From Diprion similis (lineage: Eukaryota; Arthropoda; Insecta; Hymenoptera; Diprionidae), in NCBI RefSeq assembly GCF_021155765.1, contig NC_060112.1, forward strand, positions 14,322,001-14,386,000: a stretch of 64,000 nt of DNA. The letters run 5' to 3'. Position 1 is the stretch's first letter. Every line of letters begins with the position of its first letter. Of this stretch, positions 28,280 to 56,475 are shown in pieces. The position numbers and the translations under genes are program-made. The notes beneath the pieces are model-generated. The model searched no databases, was not told the DNA's origin, and saw only the letters and a program-made list of their open reading frames with translations.

Positions 28280-31219
28280 ATGAGAGCGGTTTTAATTTGT
28301 GCTTTCGCACTCCTAGCTCTGGCCTGTGTACAAACCGGTAAATAATCTTATAAATAATATTGCTAATAGCAGAATATGGACGTCGACGGTGAACTTATGC
28401 CAAGGAAAACAGTTTTTAAATATTGTCTCCATCGATAAGACTCGACTTTCACAAGTTATGAAAAGTGCCATGGAAATATTTTTTGTCATGGTTTGCGCAA
28501 GATTCAATTCTACGCACGGTTATTAGTATGAAATACGTGATCGAATATCATTGCACTTGTTGTACTTCCAAATTGAGGTTTTTTTTTCGTTAGGAGCGCA
28601 TGTTTGCATAGCTTATGAATAATAATATATTTTTTTGTCCAAGGTTTTTCTGAAGTAGTCAACGGGCTTCCCATAGCCTACAACAAGCATCGGCCTGAAC
28701 GAGGTAAGAAATTTCACCAATTTTCAAAGGCTGCTTACTACAAGTAAAGGAATAATACGAATAGTATCAAGATAGTTGTACTACAATTATTACGATTTTT
28801 TGCAGAATGGGATATTTTTGGGATTGGGCGAAAGATTTGCGCGCCCGGGTCGTTGAGGCGGCTGGACTGCAACACCTGTCGCTGCAACGACCGTGGCACT
28901 GACTGGGAATGTACGCTGAAGGGGTGTCCCAAACACTACCCCCAACATCGGCCTAAACAGGGTAAGGAACTTCGCCAATTTCCAAAGGCTGCATAGGAAT
29001 AGTGTCAAGATAATTATACTACATTTATTACAGCTATGTGTTAGTTATAAATACTAGTATATGTAATAATGTTTATACTTTAGAAAATGTTTGCAAATTC
29101 ACTACAGATTTCCTACGCAGAAGTGCAACACTAGAGTACAATTTCTTTACGGAAAAGTGGAATTGCTATACATTCCGTGTGAATTCGACAGTTTACTCAC
29201 AATTTTATAAAACTTTGTTGTAAAAATACGGATCTGATTGTGAGTAATTCGGGTATCCGAATTTCCGGATAGCTTGGATAGCACGTGTCAACACTATTGA
29301 ACATACATTTATTGATTACACGGAACATGCCATACCATTGGAATCTGACCACGACGCTTTCCTGTAAGCACATTGTTGGTCGTTACAAAAACAAAAACAC
29401 GATTTGAACTTTCGAAAAATGGCCGCTCTCGTAATTTTACAGTCTGCCGTCTGCAAAATTACTCTTGACCGCGATCAATTTTGACACAATTTGAAAGGCA
29501 AATTCTTTATGAAAAGACAAATATTTTGAGACTGAAGCAAAGATGAGTGTCCGTCTAAGTTGGGAGGTACGACAGAATCAATTGAAAATAATATGATTTA
29601 CAAGCATGCCGTAAACTCACAGCGCTTGTGATTTTTTCTCTTTTGCTGACTCGTATTTGTCTTTTCAACTTTTAGTTACGTACACAATAATTTTTGCTCT
29701 ATTTCCAAAGTGTATTCGTTACGAAAAGTGCCAAGTAAATACCCCAACGCCTGCCTGCATAACTTTTCGGTGACGATAAATTTCTCTGTTCTTAATTTTT
29801 TTGCAGAATTGGACGTTGTCACGGAAATGCCAAGGATTTGCGAGCCCGGATCGACGAAAGCCATGGACTGCAACACCTGTTTTTGCACCGCAGATGGCAC
29901 TGCATGGGGTTGTACGCTGAAGGGGTGTCTCGGAGACGAAACCTTGTACCGACCTAAGCGAGGTAAGGAACTTCGCCAATTTTCAAAGGCTGCATAGGAA
30001 TAGTGTCAAGATAATTATACTATATTCATTACAGCTATGTGCTAGTTATAAATACTAGTATATGTAATAATGTTTACACTTTTGAAAATGTTTGCGAATT
30101 CACCACAGATTCTCTACGCAGAACCGAAACACTAGAGTACAATTTCTTTACGAAAAAGTGCAATTGCTATACCTACATTCCGTGTGAATTCGACAGTTAA
30201 CTCACAATCTTATAAAACTTGGTTGTAAAAATACGGATCTGATCGTTAGTAATTCGGGTATCCGAATTGCCGGATAGCTTGGATAGCACGTGTCAATACT
30301 ATTGAACATACATTTATTCATTACACGGGACATTCCATACCATTGGAACCTGACCACGACGCTTTCCTGTTAGCATATTGCTGGGCGTTACAAAAAAAAA
30401 AAAAAAAAAAAAAACACGATTTGAATTTTCGAAAAATGGCCGCTCCCGTAATTTTACAGTCTGCCGTCTGCAAAATTACTCTTGACTGCGATCAATTTTG
30501 ACACAATTTGAAAGGCAAATTCTTTATGAAAAATTAAATATTGTGGGACTGAAGCAAAGATGAGCGTTCGTCTAAGTTGGGAGGTACGACAGAATCAATT
30601 GAAAATAACATGATTTGCAAGCATGCCGTAAAATCATAGCGCTCGTGATTTTTTAGATTTTTTCTCTGTTGCTGACTTGTATTTGTCTTTTCAACTTTTA
30701 GTTACGTACACAATAGTTTTCGTTCTATTTCCAAAGTGAATTCGTTACGAAAAGTGCCAAGTAAATACCCCAACGCCTGCCTGCATAACTTTTCGGTGAC
30801 GATAAATTTTTCTGTTCTTAATTTTTTTGCAGAATTGGACGTTGTCAGGGAAATGCCAAGGATTTGCGAGCCCGGATCGACGAAAGCCATGGACTGCAAC
30901 ACCTGTTTTTGCACCGCAGATGGCACTGCATGGGGCTGTACGCTGAAGGGGTGTCTCGGAGACGAAACTTTGTACCGACCTACGCGACGTAAGGAACCTT
31001 GCCAATTTTTAAAGGCTGCAGAATTGTCATGAAAACAGTTTATATATCATTCGGGCATCCACATTCTTAAGTTTAAAATATTCAATTCCCGCCCGCAGAA
31101 GCAACGTCTGCAATGGCAGTATGAGAACAACCGGCTGCCTGAAGTGTTACTGCGACGAAGATGCAGCATTCGAGACCTGCTTCGGCATAGCAGGTTGTGG
31201 AGACACCACTGAATTCTAG
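28280..31219 (+). CDS. Gene A: secreted pacifastin-type serine protease inhibitor, multi-domain
   Basis: Exons: 28280-28337 (signal peptide MRAVLICAFALLALACVQTG), 28644-28703, 28806-28961, 29807-29962, 30833-30988, 31099-31219; all internal junctions are phase 1. Exons 3, 4 and 5 each hold one complete six-Cys pacifastin domain (C-x9-C-x2-C-x-C-x8-C-x4-C). In this fold the residues after Cys5-Thr form the reactive bond; all three read CTLKGC, so P1 is Leu, suggesting chymotrypsin-like targets. Junctions carry R-P-K-R or R-P-E-R, possible convertase sites. Domains 2 and 3 are nearly identical through a 1 kb tandem duplication. Exon 6 encodes a fourth, diverged six-Cys domain (CNGSMRTTG-C-LK-C-Y-C, then CFGIAGC, stop 31217-31219), but only in phase 2. 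Spliced normally from exon 5 it gives a stop at 31122-31124. Confidence 0.85.
28962..30988 (+). repeat. Recent tandem duplication of intron plus pacifastin exon
   Basis: Copy 1 (28962-29962) and copy 2 (29963-30988) are near-identical across intron and exon. The length difference of about 25 bp is largely an expanded A tract (30392-30414, 23 A) where copy 1 has CAAAAACAAAAACACG. The encoded domains differ at a handful of residues (Thr/Arg before the domain, and KRG versus TRR at the end). The intron before exon 3 (28704-28805) holds a shorter, older match to the same sequence. Confidence 0.95.
30392..30414. repeat. Poly-A tract (23 bp)
   Basis: Uninterrupted A23 within the second copy of the gene A tandem duplication. 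It accounts for most of the size difference between the copies. Confidence 0.95.
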
Positions 31220-33339: not shown

Positions 33340-33566
33340 ATTTCTCCTGGCTCAATTGAGTATTTAGACAAATTTAATTTGTTCCATATTTCATCCTTCA
33401 ATCCTTATTTCTTTTCATATAAAATCACGGAAGACTTCCATGTTGGAAAGTTTTCCGACACTACAAGGATCGTTTTGCATTTTAGGAGGCACGTCTATGT
33501 AATCACAAGTAGCCTGTAATAAATTATTATGACTTTTAGGGTATTAATAACTTGAGTAAGTTCAAA

Positions 33567-34200: not shown

Positions 34201-36474
34201 TATGCTAGTTAAGGGATTTTTTAATATAAAAGTATAATTGATACCGTTGTCACTACAACTGCACTAAACAGGAATATTCTTATGCTTGCGTTTTGAGATA
34301 TTTCAATTTATGATTCATCAATACTTTTTGGAAAGTGGTTTGGATAGCCATTTACGTGTTTACAGAGAATCACACATGTAATAATATACGTAATAATGGC
34401 GCAGGCGTGAGTAAACTTCTTCACAGCACATCGAGATCCTTCTTTGTATAATTGTTTTTGCGAAATTATAACCGACATTGGTTTCCAAAAGGCAACCTCA
34501 AACAATTTAACAAAAATCGATGTAAGTATGATCCCCCCTAAAAGTATCTTGATCTGGTGTAAAAGCCTTTCGCGAAGTACATTAAAAATGTGGTCATTAC
34601 GCACAAAAACAGCTTTCCTGATCAGAAATGTATGCACAGCATACAAAAATATTCTCATCCTTTATTAAAAAACATTCAAATCACATACTAGCCAAATACA
34701 TGTCTGTTAATTCACGATAAAAGCACGGTTTGCCGTCATTGCGAATCATGTATTTGTGTAGATATGTGTACGTGAGTATGTGATTTAAATCTTCTTTGAT
34801 AATGGATAAGGACATTTATTTGTGTACAGTGCTCTCGTGAAATAAGTTTTGTGCCTAAAGTGATTGTCTCTGCGCCTTTGGCGATCTGTATGTTTAAAGA
34901 CGCAGTGCATAGTTAAAATATATTTGTTTTCACTATCTGGCTTGCTGGGCTTTTCCCTCTATTCCGTGAGGTTTCTTAAGCCCGAGCAAGTTAAAGTTCA
35001 CTAAACAACCCGCAAAATGACTGTGTTCTTATTTGAATCCCTGTCCACTCGACCCTTCTTGAATTTTCAACCGTTGAGGTATAATTCAATAAAACAGTGA
35101 TTAAATGCATACATTTTTGTTCAAAGAAAATATTTCTGTGGGTAATGATGACATTTAATTTACTTGGCAAAAGCTTTTTACACCAGCAGCGCTTTTTGAG
35201 GAAATAATATGTATAACTAGGTTCAAGTGCTAAATATGTATCTTGAGGTGTGAAGTACAAGAAAAATGTATGTTGCGTGCAATTTTCACGCATGTTTTTT
35301 CCTATGCAATGTTTTACATTTCGGCTTTATTTACGGCCCAACTATAGACAAAATCTTGAATAACTAGCCATATTCCTCTCTATTTCATCTTACTTATCTT
35401 CCCGGGTCATTTCAGGACTCTTTTCCTAAATACACTGTAGTTTTTAAACCGGTCCTCCTAGCAAGTTATTTTTCGCTACGTTCTTCAATATTTTACAGAT
35501 CAAGGTTCTTACACAATCAGTATAAACATTTCGAGTTTACTTACGCATTAGGCATGTACAGAGAATTCTATACCTGTCTTGCGTCTGTGCGGGGTCGGCG
35601 GTATCACATAAATGTTATCATTAGTATAGGCTGATTTCTCGGAAGAATTCTTATTGGAATTGTGCAAACATCATTTATTTTCAATCATGGGTTCTTTAGA
35701 AATATTATCTCCTAGCCCATTTCCGACGAAAACGGTTGTTTTATTTCGAGTCGTTCATATACTCCAACAATCACTTCAAACCAATCTATTTACAATAATA
35801 TCTATTTAGTTTATAGTAACAGCTGTTGCGGAAAATGGAAAACCTGGTGAATAATGTCGTATCGGTATTGAATGTGCTATCAAAAACCATTGTACAAGTT
35901 TCGGTTATGCAATCTTAGAATCCAGGTCAGTGAACATTTCAAGATGCATCCGTACACAATTCACAAGAACATCTCGTGAATTATGCGGTAACATGCGTAA
36001 TAAAGAGGAAAACCAAGTGTAAAAGTAATTTACAAATCATATTCGTTACATAAGCATTTTTTATACCAACGTTGACAATCAATATCTAGTAGAGCTGATG
36101 GTAATATTTATTAATTGAAACAAAATGATAATACACAAGATTGTTGATAAAATTTGAAGACAGGTCAAAATTTGACTTTAACTGCCTTCAGATATGAAAT
36201 CTTACGTAGTTCGTTATCTTCTGATTTTTTCCGTTTATGGCTATGTACACTTCTTAGAAATTTTGTCCCCGTGTTGTTTGAGATACTCTAATTCGTTTCT
36301 CTTTATCGGTACTGTTATAGAAATCCTCATTAGGAAATAGATTAACGCGGTTCATTTAGTGCAAAGTTCATTAGAAAGATTCTAAATTTTTCACGCCTAC
36401 CTCATGTTGTTTTTCGTGACTTTGAACTCGGAATTTGACTCGGTGCTTACGTCACAACAACTGAAGAATGGTGG
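34201..36474. other. Intergenic between genes A and B
   Basis: A 116-codon minus-strand frame at 34308-34658 has hydrophobic stretches but no domain I recognise and no splice context. At about 35138-35200 lies a 63 bp block (GTGGGTAATGATGACATTTA onward) that recurs at 41162-41225 downstream of gene C. Nothing else is supportable. Confidence 0.4.
35138..35200 (+). repeat. Dispersed repeat shared with 41162-41225
   Basis: Both copies read GTGGGTAATGA..ACATTTAATTTACTTGGC.AAAG.TTTTT.CACCAG.AG with only scattered differences, in the same orientation 6 kb apart. The copy at 41.16 kb marks the point where the 3' flank of gene C stops matching that of gene G. Confidence 0.8.
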
Positions 36475-36571: not shown

Positions 36572-37890
36572 ATGAAGGTTGTCGTGGTGCTATCCGTGGC
36601 TGTGATACTTCTCGTAGCCGCACTAAATGGTAAATAAACAACTCGAAATGTGCTTTTTTTCCGTAGGAAAAACAAAATCCACGGTTTATTCTCGTGGAAC
36701 GAAATATTATTCATAAATATAATCACGCCGAAATACTGTTTCACAAACAAATTTATAATATTAAGAATATTAATAATATTGAACATGTTCATCGTTTTTA
36801 TATACTGTCCAAATAAATCCACAAAAATTCGAACTATAGGTGAAGCTGACGCCCAACCTTACCCACACCAGGGGAGACCAAGGAGTTTGAGCGAGGAAAA
36901 AGTGTGTGAACCAGGGTCCTCGAGGTTTGATGGCTGCAATAGCTGCACCTGTACCCTGGATGGACTTAACTGGGGCTGCACTCGGAAACTGTGTGAACAA
37001 GCCGAAATTGCAGTTGACCTTAGCACGCTACCTGTTCAGCATGATTCAGAAAAGGAGTCCCTGCGATCACGTAAGGAATTTCTTTGTTAAAGCTCGTCCC
37101 CCGTTTGATATGTGAGACATTCATGGCAAAGCGTGTCGTGTGATCCTCAATCATGTTCTATTGGAGATTCGATTCACGAGTGATTGAGTTAGATTTTGAT
37201 CGGCTATTTCATTCTTAAGCCATGGGCAACTCATTATCTGCGTGTGAATTGACATTTGAATATTGTTTCTTGTTTCAACTGTTATCAGAACATCTCACCA
37301 ACGCGGCTCCGAAAGTAAAATCCACTCATGGGCGTTATTTGATCTGTATTAACGATGTTCGGGATGGTCACAAATAATTCCGGCGATTCACATTGTCGCA
37401 ATAGTCAAACTCAAACCCCGCATGTTGACTTTTGTCCTCATTCCACGATTCGTTATCACCATATACGCTGTCACCCGCTTTAGGACTTGGGACACTGAAT
37501 CACTTAATTTTGAAATGGTCTGCGACTTTTTCTAGACTATGTTTCAAGTCTCAACTGCCAACAAGTATTATTCGAAGCCGAACCTAATTCGTTATGCGGC
37601 GAAAATTCGCTCGAACGAAATGCGAGGGCATTTAGTAATTTTGTCGTACCGGTAATGAAATTGATACGAGATATTCGTTTGTACGCATGTATTAAAAATT
37701 ATGTACGACGTCAATACGAAATCGACTCTACGATAGTAAACCAAAATTTAAATACGTCGAAAATTCTGAATTTAAACGATTAATTTTCAACAGTGTTTCG
37801 CTGAGCTGCAACTGATCTCCGGAATTGAAAACCCTACGACGAACTCTTGCAAACCAGAAGACTTACTCTCAGCAACCGACAGGTCTATGA
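36572..37890 (+). CDS. Gene B: secreted single-domain pacifastin inhibitor
   Basis: Exon 1 (36572-36629) encodes a signal peptide (MKVVVVLSVAVILLVAALNG) with phase 1 end. Exon 2 (36840-37070) encodes a Pro/Arg-rich linker and one full domain: C-EPGSSRFDG-C-NS-C-T-C-TLDGLNWG-C-TRKL-C. The reactive site CTRKLC has Arg at P1 and Lys at P1', as in trypsin-directed locust inhibitors. The exon ends SLRSR at a GTAAGG donor in phase 1. The best downstream acceptor (CGACAG at 37877-37882) adds only Leu and then TGA at 37888-37890, for about 98 residues. If the intron were retained, a stop follows at 37088-37090. Either way one functional domain is made. The exon 3 sequence is a decayed second domain. 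Confidence 0.82.
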
Positions 37891-37990
37891 ACGGGATCCA
37901 CGAAATATGATGGCTGCAACTACTGCCACTGTCTGGTCGATGGCCTTGGATGGGCTTGCTTCACACAATCGAAGAAGATGTCATCGAGAT
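37883..37990 (+). pseudogene. Decayed second pacifastin domain of gene B
   Basis: At the DNA level it aligns with the domain in gene B exon 2, including the block GATGGCTGCAA.. and the DGLxW region. The first Cys codon TGT is now TAT, one base is missing between GAAC and GGGATCC, and the final Cys is lost behind an altered TQSKKMS stretch. In the second frame DGCNYCHCLVDGLGWAC is still readable. It is a fossil domain exon. Confidence 0.8.
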
Positions 37991-39504: not shown

Positions 39505-40135
39505 AAAGCCTGCATTTGTGCCTGCCAAAAGACTTTAGGCGGCAGTAACGGATTTCTTCAGGCACAGGCGAAATTGGAAAACCGGGTGTTCACTCGGTGA
39601 TCAGTCAGCTGCTTTTATATTGATAGCCTGTTGTAGAAAAATGAATGCGCTTAATACACGTAAGCCCAAAATTACTGTCGGAAAAGCACTGAAAACGTCA
39701 ATTCTGTGGGAGTTTTAATATTAATACATACCTTTAAAAAATTTCACGTTGGTGTAGCGTTAGTGTTAGAAAATACGCGTGATGTATATGTACGCGGTGC
39801 AATAATGTTATTGGATGCTGGTATGGGTACGTATTATTAACTTGTAGCATATTATATCATCCGCTTACTAGTATAAGCACTATAATCTATAATTATGTTT
39901 GCATATTGACCAGCTGCTCCTTCCTTATCTCTCATATTTGGACAAAGTCGAGACGACTGATAAATCTGAAATTAAAAGCCGTGACGTGATGCTCAATCAC
40001 AGCATAACCCGGTGAAATTATAATTACAATAAAATAATAGTGATAATGATAACCAAAGGTGGGACATATTGTTGCGGTTTTCAATAAAAGGTAACCGCTT
40101 AGTAACTGCAGGAAAAATATGACACCCAGGCTCAT
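39505..40135 (+). pseudogene. Orphan 3' end of a gene G-type pacifastin gene
   Basis: The segment begins within a copy of the last codons of a pacifastin gene (CTGCCAAAAGACTTTAGGCGGCAGTAA, compare PPKDLRRQ-stop of gene G at about 51460-51485) and continues through the same 3' flank as gene G (about 51485-52050), including GATCAGTCAGCTGCTTTT and AAAATGAATGCGCTTAATAC. No domain or upstream exon precedes it. It is the truncated tail of a lost array member, directly upstream of gene C. Confidence 0.88.
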
Positions 40136-40275
40136 TTCGTAACTTCCAGAGAAATACTGTTTCGATTGAGATTCCCTATCACATCTTCGTCGTGACGTCG
40201 ATTACTTTTCTCTCAGAGTTTATTATCCATGGCTTCTGATTGGCTATCTTCTCACGTCGCAAGGATTCGAAACCC

Positions 40276-40282: not shown

Positions 40283-40354
40283 CTCGGAGTCTTGAGTAAA
40301 TTGCATCACTCCTCTTCGGCACTCAGCCGATATTGCTGACAAGTTTGCTCGACA

Positions 40355-41081
40355 ATGATGAAGAATCTTCCAGTGTGCTCCCTGATTCTCGTGGTGTTGG
40401 CGAGTGGTAAGTAACGTTATCAATATATCGTGGGGTCCATCAAACTTTCTGTAAATCACCATGAATTTTGTCATACCATCGACTATTGAACAAAATTCAT
40501 CACCTATTTGTTCAAGCTCATAGTAGTTATTGAGCTATCTCGTTCCATTTAGTTCAGATTTTAGTTATTCCGACAGTTTTTATTTATTGCTTATTAAATC
40601 GGTTTTTAGTACTAACCTATATCCGCTATGTTCTGAAAGGAATCCACGGACACCCAAGTGGCAAAGGGAGGGTACAGATTTGCACACCAGGGACCCAAAC
40701 TAAAGTGGACTGCAACACTTGCACCTGTTTTCAAGATGGAACTGCTCTCAGTTGCACTAGAATGGAGTGCGTACAAATACCAACAGAATATTCAATGCGG
40801 ATGGCTCCGTAAGGCGTCCTCATCAAGACAACCCGTTGCTTCGTACCAAGCGAGGTAGGCTGTTTTTAAATTGACATGTATACAAAGGTGACCAGCCGCT
40901 AGTTACATTTTAGCTTCATACTCCATTTTACCTTCCAGATTCCCCCAATCCTCTGAAGTGCAAACCAAATGAAAGCTTCATGGACGAGGACGGCTGTAAT
41001 CGATGCACGTGTTCATCCGATGGTCGGCAAGCTATGTGTACGCTCATGGAATGCCTGCCAAAAGACTTTATGCTGCAGTAA
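40355..41081 (+). pseudogene. Gene C: pacifastin gene with a one-base frameshift in the linker
   Basis: Exon 1 (40355-40406) encodes the signal peptide MMKNLPVCSLILVVLASG, identical to genes F and G. Exon 2 (40640-40854) holds an intact domain (C-TPGTQTKVD-C-NT-C-T-C-FQDGTALS-C-TRME-C; P1 Arg, P1' Met). It is 215 bp, against 216 in gene G. One base is missing near 40791 (GAATATTCAATG against GAATATTTGAATG), giving a stop at 40810-40812. The frame would give a one-domain product of about 74 residues. Exon 3 (40939-41081) still encodes an intact second domain ending DFMLQ-stop, reached only in the old frame. That domain is a hybrid: its front resembles gene G domain 3, its tail domain 4. The break may be a real allele, a recent pseudogene or a sequencing error. 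Confidence 0.85.
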
Positions 41082-41161
41082 CGGATTTCTTCAGGCACAG
41101 ACGAAATTGGAAAACCGGGTGTTCACTCGGTGATCAGTCAGCTGCTTTCTTATCGATATAT

Positions 41162-41225
41162 TGTTGTGGGTAATGACTACATTTAATTTACTTGGCGAAA
41201 GTTTTTTGCACCAGAAGTGGTTTTT
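41162..41225 (+). repeat. Dispersed repeat, second copy (see 35138-35200)
   Basis: Same-orientation copy of the 63 bp block at 35.14 kb, placed exactly where homology between the gene C and gene G 3' flanks ends. Confidence 0.8.
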
Positions 41226-41632
41226 TGGGGGTTCAATTTTTATTCCTGTGTTACATATACAGGACTTTATTCCTGACTCAACTCTGGCTACATTATTGAC
41301 TTGAAAGTCTTCTAGTTTTACGTGGAAGTGTGATCTATGCGTCTGAAAACTGAAACATTATGGTAAATTTATAATAATACAGAAAGAAATAGTTCAGAAT
41401 GAAAGAAAAGAGAGAAAACCAGAAAAACTGAACAACTAATTCTCGGGAAATATGACCTCATATCTCCCGTAAATACGGAAGAAAACTGCTACGTTTTTCC
41501 CGCAGATGAAAGAAGAGGGAATAATATGCTACTTCCATTCCACTTTTCAGGTCAAAAAAGTGAATATTATGTTTGAGTCGGGAATGCTAGTATAGTACGA
41601 TCGTGTCTGTCGACTGTTGTTTGTGAAAATTT

Positions 41633-41638
41633 AATAAA
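41633..41638 (+). terminator. Candidate polyadenylation signal downstream of gene C
   Basis: AATAAA, about 550 bp beyond the exon 3 stop and next to spacer sequence that also follows gene E. Confidence 0.4.
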
Positions 41639-41639
41639 T

Positions 41640-41900
41640 AGGGTGATTTAAACAATTGTCACGTCTGCGCTCATGTTTATTTTTTATAAATCTCGTGCCC
41701 ACTATTCACCTTGGCGGTGTAACTTTATGCACTGCATGAATTCAAATTTCCACGCATCCATACAGCAAGTGTTAATTGTGTCTGCAAATATAACTGACGC
41801 ATAACTCACGAAACGTATATTGATACGTATTCACTCGTTGTTCCCGTTAAAAAAACGCCATATAATCAATTCCTAGGTATTACATAAATAACACTGGTTG
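41640..41900 (+). repeat. Array spacer module, copy 1
   Basis: The block TTTAAACAATTGTCACGTCTGCGC, then CACCTTGGCGGTGTAACTTTATGCACTGCATGAATT, recurs downstream of gene E (45956-46110) and upstream of gene G (49590-49780). It marks the boundaries of the duplicated gene units. Confidence 0.85.
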
Positions 41901-42575: not shown

Positions 42576-42579
42576 TTGA

Positions 42580-43269
42580 CCAGTGTGTAATTACGTCAAG
42601 TTTTCTGAATATACATAGTCGATGCAACATATCAGGTTGCGTTAATTAATTATTCAACTGCTCGTCGGCCGACGAACGAGTTATAAATTATGTGATAAAA
42701 TTACCGAGTAACCAATTATTATTATACTCGCTAACTATATTCTCTGATAACGTGCACATATTGGCACAGACGACGAAAGACTTTATCGCACTAGTTGTAA
42801 CTATACCGCAACGGGTGTGTATACGCGTAATAGTACCAAGAGAAGGTAAGTGAAATAATTTTCTCTTGTGAAATCGGTAAGTTTCGATCTGTTACGGATA
42901 AATTTGTTAGTCCGTTATTAATAACGTAGTAATATGACAGGTTATATTTGACGAGAGACCTGAAGAGGAGATTCATATTCGTCCGATCCTCTTACGTTGA
43001 AACCAAAAAGTGTAGGTAATTACGTCATGCGTTTTTTCAGACTATCCTAAGAAATATTGTTCCGAATTACTTCTTTCGCAGCCTTTATCCTTGATTCCCG
43101 ATTGGCTGGTTTCTCACGTCCTGCGGATTCGAAATCATATTCAGTTTCGATTCTTCGGTAAGCTGCGTTTACTCCTCTCCAGATACTCAACTGATATTGG
43201 CGATAAGCTTCCTCGTAACGATGAGGAACGTTCCAATATGCTCCCTGATTCTCGTTGCGTTGTCGAATG
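42580..43269 (+). repeat. Duplicated promoter and 5' module, gene D copy
   Basis: Matches 46920-47620 (gene F) and 49800-50557 (gene G) through blocks such as CGACGAACGAGTTATAAATTAT, GTGATAAAATTA and TACGTCA. The part nearest the gene also matches 40140-40406 (gene C). The gene D copy has lost its TATA box: TATTTAA is replaced by TATTCAG near 43137. Confidence 0.85.
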
Positions 43270-43984
43270 GTAAATAACATTGTTAATATAATATTAGGCA
43301 GATCAAACTTCTTGCAAATCACCAAGCATTTTGCCGTAACAGTTGACATGAATTTGCCACCGTTTTGCCCAAGAAATAATTATTCCGATATTTCATTTCA
43401 TTGAGTTCATACCTACTGATGGTTTTGATTTTTCTTTCATTAAATCGTTTTCTAATACTAACCTACTATCCGCTATATTTGATGTTCTGAAAGGAATCCA
43501 TGGACACCAAAGTATCGAAGTATGGAGACAGAATTGTACACCAGGACAAAAGATTGTAGTAGACTGTAAAAACTGCACATGTTCTAAGGATGGAAGTTAT
43601 GTGGACTGTACTAGAATGCGACACATAAGTATCGAAATACGGAAACAGAATTGTATACCAGGACAAAAAACTATTATAGATTGCAAGATTTGCACATGTT
43701 CTCAGGATGGAAGTTATTTGAACTGCGCCTGAATGTGAGTGGCTCCTTAAAGCTTCCTCGTCAAGACAATCCGCTGCTTCGTATTAAACGAGATAGAGTA
43801 TTTTGAATCAACATCTATCCAACCGTTAGTTACATTTCAGCTTCATGCTCCGTTTCACCTTTCAGATAAAATCTGTCGGGCAAACAGCGGTAGAAGAGCG
43901 AATGGCAACATAACATGCCGACACAGCATTGATGGAACCGTCGCGCTCCGAGAATTGCGTCGAGATAATCTCCCGAAAATCTGA
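43221..43984 (+). pseudogene. Gene D: pacifastin pseudogene with an internal domain duplication
   Basis: Exon 1 (43221-43269) encodes MRNVPICSLILVALSNG. In exon 2, starting at 43494, a 117 bp unit (39 codons) is duplicated in frame (copies at about 43504 and 43621). The first domain runs C-TPGQKIVVD-C-KN-C-T-C-SKDGSYVD-C-TRM and joins the second before its sixth Cys. The second (C-IPGQKTIID-C-KI-C-T-C-SQDGSYLN-C) stops at TGA 43730-43732, also before Cys6. The donor that should follow KRG is AT instead of GT at 43793-43794. Exon 3 (43866-43984) keeps only two Cys. The open part would give 95 residues with no complete six-Cys domain, so I call it a pseudogene. Confidence 0.87.
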
Positions 43985-45118
43985 CTAACCTCCACGGAAA
44001 CCGCGCAATTTCGTTTCCACGTGAGCTTAAATCAAGGATTCATTAATTACTAACCACTTGGTGTTCACCTGATGTTCACCTGATTTTTGACGTAAAATTT
44101 CGCAAGGAAAAAATGAAAAAACAGGGAGCATGTCATTGTTATGTGTACCTATTTGAAATTTGCTTTTGCATGTTTGTATTCGAAAAAATGTATAATATTT
44201 TTGAACACTGGAACTATCAACTAAGCGAGGGATCTTCGTGCTAATTATCAGTAAAAATTCCGTCACTACTTCCTATCTTGTCCCAGTGCTCGTGCTGCTG
44301 GCTTTATCACTGAAAGAGCTTGATCTGGTCACTTGATGCAGAATCCATGAAAAAATAAACCGCTTCGTCCACGGCCATCGCCATTCTGGTATTGCTGCCG
44401 TTGCGTTGATCTAATTCTGAACCGACCCGTGGTTTCTACGTATCAGATCAAACTTATAAGTATAGCGCAGTGTTATTCAACATTGCAAACTTACGATTTC
44501 GAAACAATTTCTTGGGAACGCTTGAAAGCTGTGCCACTCAAGTACATACATACTTGCTCTTAACTTTCGGCTATCGGTTATCGGCTATTTATTACAGACT
44601 TCCGGTACGGCGACTCCTCTTTATAGGTAATGCTTTCAAAATTAGCAAACCAGATTAAAATCAGCCGGTTAATAAATTGCATGTTTTTCAAGGTATCGGT
44701 TTCGTTTATTACAGTTAAAGAATGAATTACCGACGCATATCGGATTCAAATACAACTCAATTTAAAAGTTGTTTGGTTCTCGAAAATTGTGATCCGTTGC
44801 CACTGACTTGGCCGTTATCGCCTGACTTTCCATGATCCACTCTGACCTATTATGATTCAAGCTTATCTCCGAGCAGTCATCTCGAATGTAATTCAAAATT
44901 CAAGTGGTAAACATTACTCAATGTTATCATTGTTCGGTTTAAAAACAGTCGTCATTAACATCTGTCTCGCGAGAAGTTCCCCCACTCGATTTAATTCCGT
45001 TTTCAATTCGGCGTTGTCTTATTCTAGAAGCTCATCTGATACGTAATACTTTGAACAAATCCAACGCGACAGACGAAAAGGCTTGATTACACACTTTAAG
45101 GTGCAATTTGGAAATAAC
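43985..45118. other. Intergenic between genes D and E
   Basis: AT-rich, with no exon or element recognised. Its 3' part presumably holds gene E's upstream regulatory region. Confidence 0.4.
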
Positions 45119-45169: not shown

Positions 45170-45819
45170 ATGAAGGAGCTGTTAATGTACACTTTCACTT
45201 TCATGAGTCTGTTTCACGCACAAGAGGGTAAGTTGAAGTTTCATCGTAATAACTAGCGGCGAATAATGACGGACAAATACAACGGAGTTTAATATTTTTC
45301 AGTCAAAGGAGCTCCACAAGATTGGCTCGACACGGAGATAAAACTGCATCATGTAAATCCGTACAAACTAATATTGCAAAAGAGGAGTATCCTGAACTCT
45401 CAAGTCTGCATACCGGGTGCTACAAAACGTAACGAATGCAACAACTGCCTCTGTTCCGCAGACGGTTCAGGATGGTCTTGCTCCACGACGGAGTGTCTTC
45501 AATTTAAATCATCATCCCAGGGTTCCGATGACGCTTCAAAAAATCCAGATGCAGTGAAAAATTTGCGTCGTGTGAAGCGATGTATGAGAATGAATTGCAG
45601 TATATATGTATGAATGATTCGAAGTCAATTATAAGCAAACTCGGTAGTCAAATTTATTTCTTATTATACTTTACAGTGTTACTGACGGCGGGACCTTGTA
45701 GAAGAGCAATGTACATGAACGAATGTAACCATTGTTGGTGCCAACCCGACAGTTGGGGCGGCCATTACGTCTGCACTACGAATCCCTGTCCAAGTACTAC
45801 GCCGCGTACTGTTGCCTGA
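45170..45819 (+). CDS. Gene E: secreted two-domain pacifastin-like protein with unusual reactive sites
   Basis: Exons 45170-45227 (signal peptide MKELLMYTFTFMSLFHAQEG), 45303-45581 and 45677-45819; phases 1 and 1; 159 residues. A 30-residue acidic and basic spacer ends in LQKRS, then domain 1: C-IPGATKRNE-C-NN-C-L-C-SADGSGWS-C-STTE-C. An RVKR furin-type site follows, then domain 2: C-RRAMYMNE-C-NH-C-W-C-QPDSWGGHYV-C-TTNP-C. All 12 Cys are kept, but P1 is Thr in both (CSTTEC, CTTNPC) rather than Arg, Lys or Leu, and the Cys4-Cys5 loop of domain 2 is longer than usual. Targets may be elastase-like, or the protein may no longer inhibit. The donor after VKR (T|GTATGAG) is the weakest junction. 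Signal peptide and linker differ from the C/D/F/G group, so this is an older branch. Confidence 0.9.
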
Positions 45820-45893: not shown

Positions 45894-45955
45894 ATGTATT
45901 TCATAATGATGTGTTACTCTAGTGTCGTTTGTGAAAAGTTTACGAATACGGTGTT

Positions 45956-46110
45956 TTAAACAATTCTCACGTCTGCGCAAATGTTTGCCATTTATAATTC
46001 TCGTTCACTGTTCACCTTGACGGTGTAACTTACTGCATAAATTAAAATTTCCATGCATCTATACTGTGCTATACGGTTCTAATTGTGTTTGCAAATATAA
46101 TTAAATGCGA
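45956..46110 (+). repeat. Array spacer module, copy 2
   Basis: Same module as at 41640 and 49590 (TTTAAACAATTCTCACGTCTGCGC, then CACCTTGACGGTGTAACTT). Its continuation toward gene F is interrupted by the foldback element and resumes near 46.9 kb. Confidence 0.85.
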
Positions 46111-46179: not shown

Positions 46180-46730
46180 TCTTAGATTTTTTCAAATTTT
46201 CTCCTTCATCCGTTAATTTATTTTGATTATTCAGACCCATCTCGAATTCAGCATTTTTTTAAACTCGCAAAGATTTCTCAAAAATCTGAGATTTCATTTC
46301 GATCATTTCGATACCCGTCCCTTGATGGGGAGATTTTTTTCTATTTTATTTTTAGCACTTTAAATATTTTGAACATACAAAACACCATGTTTTAACGTTG
46401 CGAAAATTCTCCAAGAATTTCGAGAAATTCTGTGTTTTTGCGTCAAGAGATCCGAAATTGAATAAGGAATTTTTTGAAAATTTTCGGATTGTTGAAACAT
46501 GGTGTTTTGTTTGTTCAAAATGTTTTAAGTCCTAAAAAAAGGAAAAACAAATCACCCCGTTATAGGTCGGCAGTTAAAATAACCAGAATGAAAAATAAGG
46601 CATTCGAGAATTTTTGAAGATTTTTACAATATAACCGATTTCGAGATGGGTCTTGGTCATAGAGAAAAATTAACGATCATAAAAAAAAAAATAGAACAAA
46701 TTCAGGACTACTTTTTTGCGAACGAAGATT
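46180..46730. mobile_element. Foldback (long imperfect inverted repeat) element
   Basis: Two arms of about 200-250 bp face each other around a centre near 46.44 kb. Paired blocks: CAGACCCATCTCGAA at about 46232 with TTCGAGATGGGTC at about 46640, and CAAAACACCATGTTTTAAC at about 46379 with GTTGAAACATGGTGTTTTG at about 46491. It has no coding frame. It sits inside the spacer upstream of gene F, where gene G's spacer has no such insert, so it is a later insertion of a non-autonomous element. The outer limits are approximate. Confidence 0.75.
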
Positions 46731-46904: not shown

Positions 46905-47620
46905 AATTACAATGCCATAATAATGGTTGAACGCTGTATAATCAATTCCCAGATATTGCCCGAATGATTATTCGAAGGCAGCATACAAGTAGCGTTAACC
47001 ATTCGATTACTCGTCAGACGTTAGAGGAGTTATAAATTATTTGATAAAATTAACGAGTGACCAATTATTCTTGTATTCGCTAAATAAATTCTCTGATACC
47101 GTACACAAATCGATTCAGATGGTTCTGCTGGTTACAATACCCCAATGAATGTGTAGACATACGCGTGACAGGACGAAGCTAAGGTAGGTGAAATAATTCT
47201 TTCATGTGAAAAGACCTTGATGTCTTGAGAATTCGGTAAATATTGATCTGTGATGTAGGATTTTTCAGCCCGTTATTGACAGATTAAATATTGCAGATTA
47301 TATTTGACGATAAACCTAGAGAGGGGATTCCCGTTTATCCTATTCTCTTGCCTTTGAAATTGAGAATTGTCGGTAATTACGTCATCCGATTTCCAGACTT
47401 CCTTAAAAATATTGTTCCGATTTCGATTCCCTATACTATCTCCGCAGTGACGTCAAATACTTTTCTCGCAGCATTCATCCTTAATTTCTCATTAGATCGT
47501 TCCTACGCCCCGTTACTTCTTTTCAGGCACTCACAATCAGGTGATATTGTTGAAAAGTTTGCTCAACAATGATGAAGAATCTTCCAGTGTGCTCCCTGAT
47601 TCTCGTGGTGTTGGCGAGTG
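46905..47620 (+). repeat. Duplicated promoter and 5' module, gene F copy
   Basis: Matches the gene G module (49760-50557) and gene D module (42580-43269) for most of its length. The stretch that holds the TATTTAA box in genes C and G is missing: sequence jumps from about TTCCTACGCC to CAGGCACTCACAATCAGG near 47.5 kb. Confidence 0.82.
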
Positions 47621-48260
47621 GTAAGTAACGTTATCAATATATCGTGGGGTCCCTCAAACTTTCCGTAAATCACCATTAATCTTGTCATAACATTTGACCA
47701 TGGAACAAAATTTATGGACCATTTGTTCAAGCTCAGAGAAGTTGTTTCGATTTAGTTCAGATTTTAGTTATTCTAACAGTTTTTATTTGTTTTTTATCAA
47801 ACCGTTTTTTGTACTAACCCACCATCCGCCATGTTCTAAAAGGAATCTATGGACACCCAATTGACGAAGTAGAGAAACAGATTTGTATACCAGGAGAACA
47901 AACTCAAGAAGACTGCAACACTTGCACCTGTTCTGTGGATGGAACCCGTATGGTCTGCACTAGAATGGGGTGCCGTAGAATGTCAGATGAACATCTGAAT
48001 GCGAGTGGTCCCCTGCTTCCTCATCAAAACAACTTGATGCATCGTACCAAACGAGGTAGGCTGTTTTAGAAATGACATTTATCCAACTGTGACCAGCGCT
48101 AATTTCATTTCAGGTTGATCCTCCGTTTCACCTTTGAGATCAAGTCTGCCAGACAAACAGAAGCAGAAAAGTGAATGACAACGTAAGATGCCGATGTAGA
48201 ATTGACGGAACCGGTGAAAATTGCGTCGAGATGATGCATCGAGATGATGGAATTGTATAA
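47569..48260 (+). CDS. Gene F: pacifastin inhibitor, one good domain and one reduced
   Basis: Exon 1 (47569-47620) encodes the same signal peptide as genes C and G. Exon 2 (47843-48055) has an intact domain: C-IPGEQTQED-C-NT-C-T-C-SVDGTRMV-C-TRMG-C, P1 Arg and P1' Met, ending in the furin-type HRTKRG. Exon 3 (48139-48260) stays open to TAA and encodes VCQTNRSRKVNDNVRCRC then GENCVEMMH: compared with gene G domain 2, Cys2 and Cys6, a disulfide pair in this fold, are both absent while Cys1, 3, 4 and 5 remain. The acceptor before it is TTTGAG, poor against TTTCAG in gene G; a stronger upstream one (ATTTCAG|GTTGA, about 48113) would end the protein right after KRG. Full form 128 residues. The TATA box is missing, so expression may be reduced. 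Confidence 0.75.
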
Positions 48261-49589
48261 ATTAAGTTTTCTTTCGTTGAGAACAATAATTTTTTGTTGA
48301 AGTTATTCACTCGCTTGTTCATTTGAATTTAGACCAATTAAAAATTGTCTCTTGAAAACTGTTAACCTTGTTTACATTTACTAGTCAATAGCTTATCGAT
48401 ATATTTTCCTCAAATTTGCAAGATAAATCATATATTAAATTACATGTTGATTTCGGTCATAACATCTTATGATTTATCACATGAACATTTTTGCCACAAT
48501 TTTATTGTACTTTCGTATACAAGGGCATCTTTTATTTACGAAATTACGTTAATTCCTAGTTTTTGTTTAGCGACCTCAATACTGCATGAAAACAGTCTTA
48601 CGATGGCTCATTTTACTCGCAATTCTTCCCAAAATTGCGGAAAGTATCTCAACTAAGCACTTTTGGGCCCCTGAAATGCGGGAAATGTGGAAATAGTAAC
48701 GCGTGTCCAAACACAACACATTTTTTTACGTTTTTCGGGATATGAGTAACTTTCCTGAACTCCGCTATGAAAGAGTGGTGCACCATCGAAATTTGAACCC
48801 TTTTCGTTCGTTTGTTTATTTAATATTGGAAAAAGGGGTAAGTTTACTCGGTCGGTAAAGGTAGGACTGCTACATAACCTTCAACGGAAAATCTTTTCAC
48901 CGGTGAAAATCAGGTTGAGACCCCTACTGGATTTTTTTCAAAATCCTCACTATTTTATACCTAACTCGAATTTGATTGGTTTTTAGTGTTTTCTTTGTTA
49001 ATTAGCCGACTTGGTGTAGCTATGTGCAACGAACAATTGGTGTTGGATGTTTGTTTAGGTTTTGGACCAAGATTCTACTCTTGATTGTGAGACACTGCGG
49101 CTGGATTCTAATTTTCTTTTATGGTCGGATGCTAATCGCGTAAAGCAACAGATATTTTAATCGGAGACCAGAGAAGAATCATGGGGGGTTTCGAATTACT
49201 CCCTCGGGCCTAATTCAAATTTCTTATTCATGAACATGGATTGCAAGAAATACTTTCAATGATACAACTGGGTTAGAGGAATCAACCTTTGGAGTTTCTA
49301 TATGATCTCCGTTTATTTATTCAAAATAAAAAAGATATAATTACAGAATTATGGGATATTTAATACAATAGAACGCAGGGCTCTTATAAATTAAAAAACA
49401 ATATAATTAAATCCTCGATTGCCTTTCTCTGTCCATAAAGTAGCTTCTTATAAAATATAATACTATTGGAAACCTTTCTAAATTATAATCTTTTATTATT
49501 AATAAATATGCAGCAACCCTTTTAGAACATAACACCCCTTTCTTTAAGGGTATGTTCTGACACGCAACAACCGCTCAGAATGCTATTCG
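48261..49589. other. Non-homologous block between genes F and G
   Basis: No other array unit shows this sequence. A part at about 49.27-49.55 kb is very AT-rich with runs of ATAAT. It may be inserted element sequence, but no termini or reverse transcriptase or transposase frame could be recognised. Confidence 0.4.
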
Positions 49590-50505
49590 CCTCGTCGGTA
49601 TGACTTTATGCACTGCATGAATTTATATTTCCATTCATCCATATGGCAAGTGCTAATTCTGCCTGCAAACATAACTATATACAATAGTAATACATTCATA
49701 CAGAAACGTCGAGTATATTTACATATGAACTCGTCGCTCCCGTCAACAAAAAAATTATAATATAATAATGATGGTTGAGCGCTTTATAATCATTTGTCAG
49801 ATATTACACGAATAATTATATAAACTTCGGTATACATATATAAAGTTACTGCAACATATCAGATAGCGTTAATTATTCGATTGCTTCTCGACCGCGGTCG
49901 GCGAACGAGTTATAAATTATGTGATAAAATTAACTATTGACCCAGTATTCTTATACTCTACGAACAAATTCTCTGATGCCTTGCACGAAACGGTACAAGG
50001 GATGAAAAACAAACTTGATCACACTAGTTATGAGTACCGCAATGGGTGCGTAGACATACGTGTAATAGTATCGAAAGACGGTAAGTGAAATAATGCTTTC
50101 ATATAAAATAACTCTAGGACGTGCAAATTCGGTAAGTGTTGATCTGTGATGGATAATTTTTCAATCCGTTATTGACGGAGTAAATATCGCAGATTATACT
50201 TGACGAAAGACCTGGAGAGGGGATTCCCATGCGTCCGATCCTCTTGCGCTTGGCACTGAAAAGTGTAGGTAATTACGTCACGCGCTTTCCAGACTTCCTG
50301 AGAAATATTGCTTCGATTGGGATTCCCTATCGCATCTTCGTTGCGACGCCACAATCACTTTTCTCGCAGCATTTATCCGCGGCTTCTGATTGGCTAGCTT
50401 CTCGCGTCGCATGGATTCGAAACCATATTTAACTCGGGGTCTTGGATGAGCTGCATCACTCCTCTTCAGGCACTCAGTCGATATTGTTGATAAGTTTGCT
50501 CGACA
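49590..50505 (+). repeat. Array spacer and promoter module, gene G copy (most complete)
   Basis: Carries the spacer block (GACTTTATGCACTGCATGAATT), the GTTGAGCGCTTTATAATCA block, the GGCGAACGAGTTATAAATTAT block and the promoter, without the inserts seen in the gene D and F copies. It is the best reference for the ancestral unit. Confidence 0.8.
50426..50478 (+). promoter_or_regulatory. Gene G core promoter
   Basis: TATTTAA at 50426-50432. Initiator-like GCATCACTCC lies about 28 bp downstream and a second candidate (TCAGT) at 50474-50478. The ATG is at 50506, so the leader is short. The same arrangement is kept in gene C and lost in D and F. Confidence 0.6.
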
Positions 50506-51485
50506 ATGATGAAGAATCTTCCAGTGTGCTCCCTGATTCTCGTGGTGTTGGCGAGTGGTAAGTAACGTTATCAATATATCGTGGGGTCCATCAAACTTTC
50601 TGCAAATCACCATGAATTTTGTCATACCATCGACTATTGAACAAAATTCATGACCCATTTGTTCAAGCTCATAGTAGTTATTGAGATATCTCGTTCCATT
50701 TAGTCCAGATTTTAGTTATTCCGACAGTTTTTATTTGTTGCTTATTAAACCGGTTTTTAGTACTAACCTATATCCGCTATGTTCTGAAAGGAATCCACGG
50801 ACACCCAAGTGGCAAAGGGAGGGCACAGATTTGCACCCCAGGGACCCAGACTAAAGTGGACTGCAACACTTGCTCCTGTTCTCAAGATGGAACTGCTTTG
50901 GCCTGCACTAAAATGGAGTGCGTAAAAATACCAGCAGAATATTTGAATGCGGATGGCTCCATAAAGCTTCCTCATCAAGACAACCCGTTGCTTCGTACCA
51001 AACGAGGTAGGCTGTTTTTTAATTGAAGCTTGTACAAATATGACCAGGCGCTAGTTACATTTTAGCTTCATGCTCCATTTTACCTTTCAGATCAAGTCTG
51101 CGAGCCAGGCACAGTGAGAAAATTGGATTGCAATAATTGCAGATGCAACTCGGACGGAACCGCCGAGGCGTGCACCAGGAAATTTTGCCTACCTCAGGAA
51201 ACGCCACGAGAACGTCGTGATCTCCCTAAACCTCTGAAGTGCAAGCCAAACGAAGACTTCATGGATGATTGTAATCACTGTCGGTGTTCGAACGATGGTC
51301 GGTCAGCCGCTTGTACCCTGATGGCATGTCCTCCTAACAACCTTACAAGACAACGACGTGAGACTCGCTGTATTCCAAACGAAGGCTTCATGGATGACTG
51401 CAATTACTGCATATGTACACCTGATGGTCGGACAGCTATGTGTACGCTCAAGGGATGCCCGCCAAAAGACCTTAGGCGGCAGTAA
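50506..51485 (+). CDS. Gene G: secreted four-domain pacifastin polyprotein, intact
   Basis: Exons 50506-50557 (signal peptide MMKNLPVCSLILVVLASG), 50791-51006 and 51091-51485; phase 1 junctions; 220 residues. Domain 1 (exon 2): C-TPGTQTKVD-C-NT-C-S-C-SQDGTALA-C-TKME-C. Exon 3 holds three domains: C-EPGTVRKLD-C-NN-C-R-C (CTRKFC), C-KPNEDFMDD-C-NH-C-R-C (CTLMAC) and C-IPNEGFMDD-C-NY-C-I-C (CTLKGC). All 24 Cys are present. Predicted P1 residues are Lys, Arg, Leu and Leu, so two heads should favour trypsin-like and two chymotrypsin-like enzymes. Each junction has a furin-type motif: RTKR-G, RERR-D and RQRR-E, so the precursor is probably cut into four small inhibitors. This is the best-preserved gene of the C/D/F/G subfamily. 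Pacifastin relatives in other arthropods regulate prophenoloxidase cascades and gut proteases; the target here is unknown. Confidence 0.97.
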
Positions 51486-51701
51486 CGAGTCTCTTCAGGT
51501 CCAGGCGAAATTGGAAAATTAGGTGTTCACTCGGTGATCAGTCAGCTGCTTTTTTATTGATAGCCTGTTGTAGAAAAATGAATGCGCTTAATACAGGTAA
51601 GCCCAAAATCACTATCGGAGACGCACTGAAAGCGTCAATTCTGCGGGAATTTTAATATTATTTTATACCTTACATATATATGTACGCCATGCGATAATGT
51701 G

Positions 51702-51707
51702 AATAAA
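51702..51707 (+). terminator. Candidate gene G polyadenylation signal
   Basis: AATAAA about 217 bp past the stop codon, at the end of the 3' flank shared with the orphan tail at 39.5-40.1 kb. Confidence 0.5.
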
Positions 51708-52059
51708 TACTTGTTTGGTTACACATTAATAACTTGGAGCCTATGATATTATTCGCTTACCAGTATAACCACTATATTATATATTTATGTTTGCATATGG
51801 ACCAGCCGCCCCTTCCTTATCTCTCATAACTATACAAAGTAGAGGCGACTGATAAATCTGAAATTACAAGTGATGGTTATGCTGAATTAGAACATCACCC
51901 AATGAAATCAAAAATACAATAAAATAATAATGATAATGCCAATCAAACGTGGTTATTTCACGTAATGAACTGTTGATGGGGGTTTTCAATAGACGGTAAC
52001 CGCTTAGTAATTACCGGAAAAATATGACACCCAGGGTCATTTCGGAACTGTGTACACCA

Positions 52060-54250: not shown

Positions 54251-54261
54251 AACACAGGATA

Positions 54262-54340
54262 CTTGTTTAACGAATGCAGTCTCTTACATCTGCGCTAAAG
54301 ATGGAAGAAGGCCCTGCGTTCAAAAGCTTTGCCCACCTGA
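54262..54340 (+). pseudogene. Gene H: pacifastin domain relic
   Basis: The C-terminal half of a domain is readable as ICAKDGRRPCVQKLCPPE: Cys4, a DGR loop, Cys5, four residues, Cys6, then CPP as in gene G. The upstream half (LFNEC) is readable only in a different frame, which soon hits a stop, so at least one indel separates them. No matching signal-peptide exon was confirmed; GAATGTGGGCTGACGAAG near 54.12 kb, followed by a GTAATT donor, is a weak candidate. Confidence 0.55.
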
Positions 54341-54948
54341 AATAAGGACGTCATCCGATAATGAAGCAGATGATCAAATGATCTTTTTTGTTGTCAGAGT
54401 TAGAAGATGTTTGACAGCATGAACTGTTTATCCAGTGACTTAGACAATCATTGATCGATTGATTCAGTTCTTCTGTGATAAGACAAATTTGACATATTTA
54501 CGTAAAAGATATCTAGTATCATTTTGGAACCACCTTCAAGAACAAGTACTCAATTATAATCAATGAGCATACGTACAATATAAATAAAAAACAAGAAATA
54601 AAAGAACTTGTGGAAAAGCGAAAATAGGTCAGTCAAGAGACAAACCACATAAGAATATGTTCAAATTTTGTGTAAAGTTACGTGTACTCTTTATTTTAAC
54701 ATAATATCTTCGTTATATGTTAACAACTGCGTTCTACTTAAGCGTCATAAAATGCAAATATTAGCATATCAACAAGTGCTGCTCCTCGAAATTTATACCG
54801 CACACCTTGCAGGTAAGTAGCTCGTGCTCGTGACATCATTTATTACTATAGTATCAAACAGGCTGCTTACAGACTTCCTTTGCATATTACATTCGTATAC
54901 TGTTACCCGTAACAAGAAGTCCAGCCTACTCTGCAAGTGAACTTGTTG
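54341..54948. other. Gene I upstream region
   Basis: Non-coding AT-rich sequence. No convincing TATA box was found at the expected place. Confidence 0.4.
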
Positions 54949-56475
54949 ATGAAGATGAAGAGCACCATTGTTTTCTTAGGGTTGATGGCCCTCATATTAA
55001 TGGCTTCTTATCTGCACACCACATCAGCCCAAAGTAAGTTGAACCAAATTCAATGAGTAATTTCCATGAAAGAAGCAGATAAATTGAGCGGTTCTAACAC
55101 TATTTATTTGAACGGAAACACCGTATTTTGATTCGATACAACTATTCAACTGGATATAATAAGCGTTTAAAAAAGCGTATTCGTGTAATTTACTCATAAT
55201 GACAATCCAGGTACATTCATTCACGGCCACATTGCTGATTCAAACGTGTACACTATATGCTTGAGTTGGGTCGAAATATCACACATGGCTACTATCTATA
55301 TTTATTCTTACAATAGACGCCCTAGAGGAGATACCGCCTGCGATGTTGGCAACCGCGAAGTCATTCGTGCGAACGGTTTACAATTTCCGTGGCGCGATTG
55401 TCGTATCGATGGTATAAAGTTAATTGATATGAAACAATCTGTGTCAGGGAACGTTGTTTATAAGATGTTATGCACAGTTGAAACAAAGAATACTCTCGTG
55501 CCAGCTTGACAGTGGTGTATTGGATGTGGTATATAAGTAACCGCATTTACGAGGGAACAGACAAATTGATAAGCCTTGTGGTTTACCACGATGTATATCC
55601 TTACTGCCAAGAATTTTATTCCAATGAGCGTTTTATTTTCTTTAGGTAGACTATTCATTGAGCAATAATACGAGGCAACTGAATAAAATTCGTGTTGATA
55701 TTATTTGATGCCACATATTTCCCTACATCTTGTCATAAGCAGAAATACTTTTACATTACTGATATTATTATTTGCTAATTGGCACTGGTCGTAAAGCAAG
55801 CTAAAGTAACATTGCTGTTTATGCACAAGCGCTGTTCATATACGCTGCATGTTGAAACGAAAACATACAGTATATCTCTTGCCCTCTGTATTGAAAATTC
55901 CACCTTTCGACGAAATTATTATTCTCTGAAGCGTGAAAACGGGGACTATTCACCTGACACGGTACAGATTAGTCAACCGTGTTCTTCTTTCTTATTAATT
56001 ATGTTTCTGTACTGTAAACGGAGAAATTGAATTTGTCCCAAAAGACACGGATCGGTCCGAAACCTGCGAATGGCGGTGACAACGAAAGTAATTATACAGT
56101 ACGTAATTACTGATTGAGTTCTTATTGGCGAACGTGATCACTATAAGTTATTTGTTGACGACTGACGATGAAAATGAGATGTTTGTTCGATAGTTGCCGC
56201 GCAGACAAAATTTATGACCGATATTATATTGATATGATGTTAATCAATTTTGTAGTTACTTAAAGCTGAACAAGATCGATTCAGAAATAATTAATTCTTA
56301 GTTAGGCACACCTGTAAGAGTTGACGATTTTTTTCTTTTTTCAGGCTCCAAATGCAAACCTGGATCCAACGTAAAGGTCGGTTGCAATAGCTGTGCCTGC
56401 ACAGCTGGCGGGACAATTGGCGTGTGCACCCAACATACATGCCCTCGGCCAATTTCTGATGCTAATATCCGCTGA
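54949..56475 (+). CDS. Gene I: small secreted single-domain pacifastin-like peptide
   Basis: Two exons, 54949-55033 and 56345-56475, split by a 1.3 kb intron, phase 1; 71 residues. Exon 1 encodes a long signal peptide (MKMKSTIVFLGLMALILMAS onward to TTSAQ); a second in-frame ATG lies at 54955. The mature part is only about 43 residues: SSK-C-KPGSNVKVG-C-NS-C-A-C-TAGGTIGV-C-TQHT-C-PRPISDANIR. Size and spacing match classical locust pacifastin peptides. The reactive site reads CTQHTC, so P1 is Gln and P1' His, which does not fit trypsin or chymotrypsin preference. The GG in the Cys4-Cys5 loop replaces the usual aspartate-glycine. Both splice sites are strong (GTAAGT; TTTTTCAG). It has no dibasic sites, so it is a single secreted peptide. 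Confidence 0.92.

Follow-up and report, generated by a model that had tools for sequence, protein, structure and literature searches.

A probable tandem cluster of pacifastin-type inhibitor genes, with intact and decayed copies, in the sawfly Diprion similis

Pacifastin genes of the wasp Nasonia vitripennis are clustered and show exon duplication and splice variants, and the authors of that study infer recent gene and exon duplication (Breugelmans et al. 2009, PMC2689174). Those of Pteromalus puparum are also clustered on scaffolds, an arrangement put down to gene duplication (PMC5691223). Here, we describe the corresponding genes of the diprionid sawfly Diprion similis in a window of 64,000 nucleotides (the whole stretch analyzed; contig NC_060112.1, positions 14,322,001 to 14,386,000), where pacifastin-type serine-protease-inhibitor genes lie as a tandem cluster at 28.8 to 56.4 kb, an explanation that, taken as a whole, we consider very probable. 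We call the loci A to I in their order along the + strand (Table 1). As in Nasonia, neighboring paralogues carry the signal peptide (a predicted one in the sawfly) on the first exon and one or more domains per exon, and the likeness extends to exon duplication, splice variants, dibasic sites, and variable reactive-site residues (PMC2689174). In contrast to what is described here for the sawfly, the words “pseudogene” and “unequal” are absent from the main text of that paper, and neither a duplication junction nor a conversion tract was found in its accessible sections. Similarly, clustering is common to P. puparum and the sawfly, whereas the available part of the P. puparum account contains neither a decay series nor conversion (PMC5691223). 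A further source (PMC13388995) uses none of the terms “pseudogene,” “gene conversion,” and “Hymenoptera” in the part at hand, and a literature search combining pacifastin with Neodiprion, which like Diprion belongs to the Diprionidae, found nothing. This type of cluster is already known in wasps, and the sawfly array is a good, well-preserved example of it and not a new kind.

In a six-frame profile scan of the window we counted 19 domains or remnants of the pacifastin type, every one of them on the + strand and within the limits of the cluster. The profile was built from 55 pacifastin domains of database proteins, and partial second matches at one place were left uncounted. Eighteen of the 19 scored 20.1 to 58.4 bits and the remaining one, the second domain of F, 11.2 bits, against best scores of 2.8 to 10.1 bits when the window was shuffled ten times in 12-mer blocks to give the chance level. 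Since the profile set includes the D. similis proteins P0011 and P0012, which correspond to genes A and F themselves, Pfam was taken as the independent test: the Pacifastin_I cut-off was passed by eight of nine translated sequences, the ninth being the terminal domain of A alone (no Pfam match at E <= 1). Six-cysteine domains (Pfam PF05375) are present in A (three), B, C (two), E (two), F, G (four), and I; D passes the Pfam score and lacks the sixth cysteine, and H is a half domain. Besides the 19, only H exceeded 6 bits in the profile scan, and it was rejected as a gene, its 6.8 bits being beaten by one of the ten shuffles (10.1 bits; the other nine gave at most 6.0), and is doubtful. Gene models were made by hand with checks of splice sites and phase, and the domain cysteines were located by a motif scan. 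Exon junctions are in phase 1 in A (up to exon 5), B, E, F, G, and I, and hydrophobic first exons, judged by eye to encode signal peptides, precede the domains in every locus except H. These checks bear out the cysteines and splice sites that an original prediction, made from the letters of the sequence, had reported as directly seen, as well as its view of E, G, and I as intact. That prediction also counted at least nine loci on one strand; all of them are indeed on the + strand, but H is doubtful and related sawfly proteins suggest that exons are shared between some of the “genes” (see below).

The alignments support the proposal that one unit was copied to give C, D, F, and G, which are now in differing states of repair. 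In the self-comparison of the window, C and G are 90.9% identical over 810 columns, C and F 74.5% over 812, F and G 72.2% over 1,497, D and G 69.2% over 1,123, and D and F 64.0% over 1,402, so that the dot-plot diagonals expected among the four regions are present (64.0 to 90.9%). E gave no DNA match to this unit in the same comparison. G, the intact four-domain gene, is 80% and 78% identical to the Neodiprion proteins P0001 and P0002, respectively, and in a search made with G only it matched 14 distinct PDB sequences of solved pacifastins at E <= 0.001 (best, 4e-9). C keeps the signal peptide and the first domain; its exon 2 has 215 bases, versus 216 in G, and then runs into a stop, and its exon 3 holds one domain, versus three in G, of which the start matches the third domain of G and the rest the fourth. 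D carries a 117-bp tandem duplication of the domain, with the sixth cysteine absent in both copies, and an exon-2 donor that reads AT. Exons 1 and 2 of F reproduce without difference the first 88 residues of annotated D. similis P0012 (89 amino acids [aa]), the last residue of which fits an acceptor ending at 48113, and F encodes a complete one-domain protein. The earlier grouping of A, B, and F as partly decayed and of C, D, and H as broken holds for the frame and stop of C, for D, and for the second domain of B, but not for F with its annotated protein, nor with confidence for H; in A, three domain exons are intact.

Could these copies be artefacts of assembly, such as uncollapsed haplotypes? 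Some segments are 90 to 97% identical, as this explanation would have it, but most pairs are only 64 to 91% identical and differ in length and breakpoints, the stretches between the copies gave no match in the self-comparison, and a triple A-type protein of its own (P0010) is present in Neodiprion lecontei. We regard an artefact as highly improbable.

The array retains traces of how the copies arose. Upstream of C, the tail of a lost G-type unit leads into a duplication junction at about 40135 to 40144, at which the 3′ flank of one unit abuts the 5′ flank of the next: from 40135 the match shifts to the 5′ flank and gene of G (50286 to 51092, 90.9% over 810 columns). A spacer shared upstream of D, F, and G (41603 to 41855, 45911 to 46106, and 49583 to 49751; 71 to 77% identical) indicates that the original unit included intergenic sequence. 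The 3′ flank is common to C, G, and the fragment at 39519 and is not found in D or F, although it had been described as common to all four genes. A second duplication lies inside A, where 53 of 845 aligned sites differ between the intron that follows exon 3 and the one that follows exon 4, and 4 of 153 sites between exons 4 and 5, compared with 52 of 153 for exons 3 and 4. This far greater closeness of exons 4 and 5 and of the introns indicates that a unit of about 1 kb was duplicated after exons 3 and 4 had parted. An older relic of the same intron upstream of A, at 26.7 to 27.1 kb, contains no domain above 6 bits in the profile scan. Together, the 3′-to-5′ junction and the 1-kb duplication in A support tandem duplication by unequal exchange, which would have changed the cluster at the level of whole units, of an intron-plus-exon unit in A, and of a single domain in D, while copies under little selection would then have decayed. 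Unequal crossing-over had been predicted as an ongoing process; the exchange itself is supported, and it may continue, but one sequence cannot show “ongoing.”

The first 195 residues of A, with GT-AG introns throughout this part, equal those of annotated P0011 without any difference. Together with the match of F to P0012, this identity would by itself make D. similis very likely the source. The last exon is out of frame by GT-AG splicing, whereas P0011 has the terminal domain (31103 to 31204; 20.7 bits in the profile scan) in frame, and inspection by eye of 30988 to 31099 gave no GT-AG junction yielding the P0011 residues between exon 5 and the terminal domain. A haplotype difference or a non-standard intron is possibly the cause. 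Domain 1 of A is identical to domain 1 of N. lecontei P0010 at 24 of 30 positions and to domains 2 and 3 of A at only 19 of 30, while A-type domains 2 and 3 agree at 30 of 30 positions within each species and at 28 of 30 between D. similis and N. lecontei. At P1-P1′, all three A-type domains have Leu-Lys in the window, whereas those of N. lecontei have Leu-Met. Such a pattern would fit separate homogenization, or separate duplication, in each lineage.

C, F, and G also share an identical tract of 87 bp, missed by the original prediction, which runs from 3 bp ahead of the ATG through exon 1 and takes in 32 bp of intron 1; for C and G the identity extends over 111 bp. Elsewhere between the 5′ flank and intron 2, 508 of 644 sites are the same in F and G (21% differ). 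At the identity seen outside the tract, the expected number of runs of such length is 1.5e-7 for F/G, 2.2e-8 for C/F, and 0.013 for C/G, which are closer overall. In the alignment of C, D, F, and G, permutation of the longest run gave P = 0.0001 for both C/F and F/G, the lowest value that 10,000 shuffles allow, and 0.03 for C/G, and a segment test gave 0.0001 for C/F, 0.0006 for F/G, and 0.0002 for C/G (40344 to 40719). Gene conversion over exon 1 of these three genes is likely; it would have overwritten the exon for the signal peptide together with the beginning of intron 1. Several results weigh against conversion. When C, F, and G are aligned alone, the runs fall short of significance (P = 0.17 for C/F, 0.05 for C/G, and 0.14 for F/G), as does the segment test without D for C/F and F/G; the loss of significance arises because sites alike in all three sequences are not counted as variable. 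Moreover, the tract is partly coding and may be under constraint. In the alignment of D, F, and G, a run between D and F in exon 3 (P = 0.008) may reflect shared descent.

Purifying selection on the signal peptide would explain the identity of exon 1 differently, and 52 of the 87 bp are indeed coding, in addition to the loss of significance once D leaves the alignment. The tract nevertheless covers 32 bp of intron and the 3 bp before the ATG, and it shows no synonymous change at about 12 synonymous sites; the identity of intron and synonymous sites argues against selection on the peptide alone. D is only about 80% identical to the others over the tract, and the signal peptides of Neodiprion differ. 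Such selection is a very unlikely source of the identity, and we retain conversion as the likely one.

In a working unit of the cluster, a signal-peptide exon would be followed by exons that hold at least one inhibitor domain, each domain being about 35 residues long. Cleavage at dibasic sites would turn precursors like G into small inhibitors, with the target set by the P1 residue; secretion, cleavage, and protease inhibition are predicted properties of the cluster products, read from their sequences. For G only, dibasic sites were located between the four domains, at KR88, RR131, and RR178. The P1 residues differ among and within loci (Table 1), their position in these domains being that of the solved pacifastins. 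Two points weigh against the explanation of the cluster as a whole: Ka/Ks between units is 0.4 to 0.7 (1.0 for D/F) over 47 codons with a wide error, which tells little on function, and no D. similis-named protein matching G or E was found within the length limits of the searches. Positive selection on the inhibitor exon was considered and rejected: the divergence of exon 2 had seemed to exceed that of the introns, yet Ka is not clearly greater than Ks (bootstrap P[pN > pS] of 0.02 to 0.56 over six pairs) and not significantly greater than the intron distance (Fisher P of 0.07 to 0.61).

Related sawfly proteins raise a further reading, in which the array would amount to a single composite locus or a few of them. 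Pairs of signal peptide and first domain (such as F, G, and the signal exon of B) would then serve as alternative starts, spliced to domain exons that lie downstream and are used in common, which would make the first inhibitor domain exchangeable and leave the remainder constant. The Neodiprion proteins cvp4, a pacifastin-like protease inhibitor, and “LRP1 isoform X3” (P0001, P0002, and P0010) are homologues of G and of A plus B. In N. lecontei, one annotated isoform (X1, P0010) carries A-type domains and then a B-type domain as the fourth, which the domain exon of B resembles, while D. similis P0011 ends with a different fourth domain. When exons 1 to 5 of A and exon 2 of B were joined in silico, the product (272 residues, without a stop, as exon 2 of B ends at a donor) aligned over its full length with P0010 (271 residues), with 168 of 274 columns identical, EAD shared directly past the join, and the last 16 residues of P0010 unaligned. 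A sequel to exon 2 of B matching the N. lecontei C-terminus was sought in the window, and the best scores in the three frames were 17, 20, and 23, against a 95% shuffle level of 28. Between P0001 (Neodiprion pinetum, isoform X1) and P0002 (N. lecontei, isoform X3), 18 of 89 residues differ in the part of exons 1 and 2 and 1 of 136 in that of exon 3 (Fisher P = 2e-7), although they come from two species and were compared as protein sequence only. Exon 2 of F and exon 3 of G meet in phase 1, with the frame kept if joined, and exons 1 and 2 of F are intact while its own exon 3 is decayed. On the other hand, F is annotated in D. similis with its own end (P0012) and not joined to G, and neither C, out of phase after the 1-base difference in exon 2, nor D, without a GT donor, could feed G. 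Likewise, the join of A and B was made in silico, and no D. similis protein with such a join was found. These comparisons suggest that neighboring sawfly “genes” share downstream exons, and we hold a composite locus to be possible but less likely than not. In the UGT1A and protocadherin loci, several first-exon cassettes are spliced to one common 3′ part; at the level of protein comparison, the sawfly array would fit this pattern. A fuller scheme is rather unlikely, and a little more so than the composite locus: conversion would keep the signal exon and first intron alike, phase-1 junctions would allow splicing of any intact cassette to a multidomain 3′ exon used in common, and unequal exchange would add cassettes.

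As for the surroundings of the array, a multi-exon citrate-transporter-like gene is its upstream neighbor. A Pfam scan of 18 to 27.9 kb of the − strand found pieces of a CitMHS (PF03600) transporter in three frames at about 21200 to 22700, which we presume to resemble the P-protein/OCA2 group. Downstream, Pfam scans of both strands of 56.5 to 64 kb gave no match at E <= 0.01, and neither Rfam at its gathering threshold nor a tRNA scan returned anything for the window. Two inverted structures lie between the loci. At 34495 to 35249, inverted arms of about 145 bp (68.7%) surround about 470 bp, with a 77% partial copy at 41146 to 41252 just past the 3′ end of C; this may be a small dispersed element by which the 3′ flank of C was interrupted. 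Between E and F, at 46336 to 46551, there is an inverted repeat of 84 nucleotides (nt), 80% complementary, with 48 nt between the arms.

Table 1. Pacifastin loci, remnants, and duplicated segments in the window
Feature	Position	Strand	Exons or parts	Six-cysteine domains	P1 residue	Score or match
Older relic of A-unit intron, upstream of A	26737-27145	+				69-75% matches to 29297-29673, 30294-30726
A	28280-31219	+	signal 28280-28337; linker 28644-28703; domain 28806-28961, 29807-29962, 30833-30988; terminal domain 31099-31219	28832-28936, 29836-29931, 30862-30957	Leu (three times)	Pacifastin_I 125.2 bits, 3 stretches
Tandem duplication inside A, intron+exon unit of ~1.0 kb	28962-30988	+	copy 1 to 29962; copy 2 to 30988			
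B	36572-37070	+	signal peptide 36572-36629; domain 36840-37070	36899-37000 (intact)	Arg	Pfam 46.7 bits
B second domain, frame-broken remnant	37894-37962	+				23.0 bits, profile positions 6-28 only
Tail of lost G-type unit	39519-40144	+	last codons and 3′ flank			76.6% over 641 columns to 51456-52049
C	40355-41081	+	40355-40406, 40640-40854, 40939-41081	40675-40776, 40956-41063	Arg (first), Leu (second)	
D, pseudogene-like copy	43221-44022	+				domains 32.1 and 24.1 bits
E, intact two-domain gene	45170-45819	+		45401-45502, 45703-45795	Thr (twice)	Pfam 50.7 bits, 2 stretches
F	47569-48260	+	one intact domain, second domain decayed	47878-47979	Arg	48.7 bits (intact), 11.2 bits (decayed)
G, intact four-domain gene	50506-51485	+	50506-50557, 50791-51006, 51091-51485	four, spanning 50826-51467	Lys (first), Arg (second), Leu (third and fourth)	Pfam 164.8 bits, 4 stretches
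87-bp identical tract, likely gene conversion	C 40352-40438; F 47566-47652; G 50503-50589	+				
H, half-domain remnant (doubtful)	54288-54338	+				6.8 bits
I, intact one-domain gene	54955-56475	+	54955-55033, 56345-56475	56350-56448	Gln	Pfam 35.6 bits

Intact copies, broken copies, and duplication junctions occur in one cluster, which is the pattern of birth and death. The array is a compact case of the multiplication of small inhibitor genes: within 28 kb, whole units, exons, and domains have been duplicated, copies have decayed, and conversion has likely taken place. The related sawfly proteins raise a testable point, namely, whether the “genes” of the cluster are separate or alternative first exons of a common precursor. 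If intact cassettes are indeed spliced to a shared 3′ exon, the first inhibitor domain of one precursor would be varied by promoter choice.

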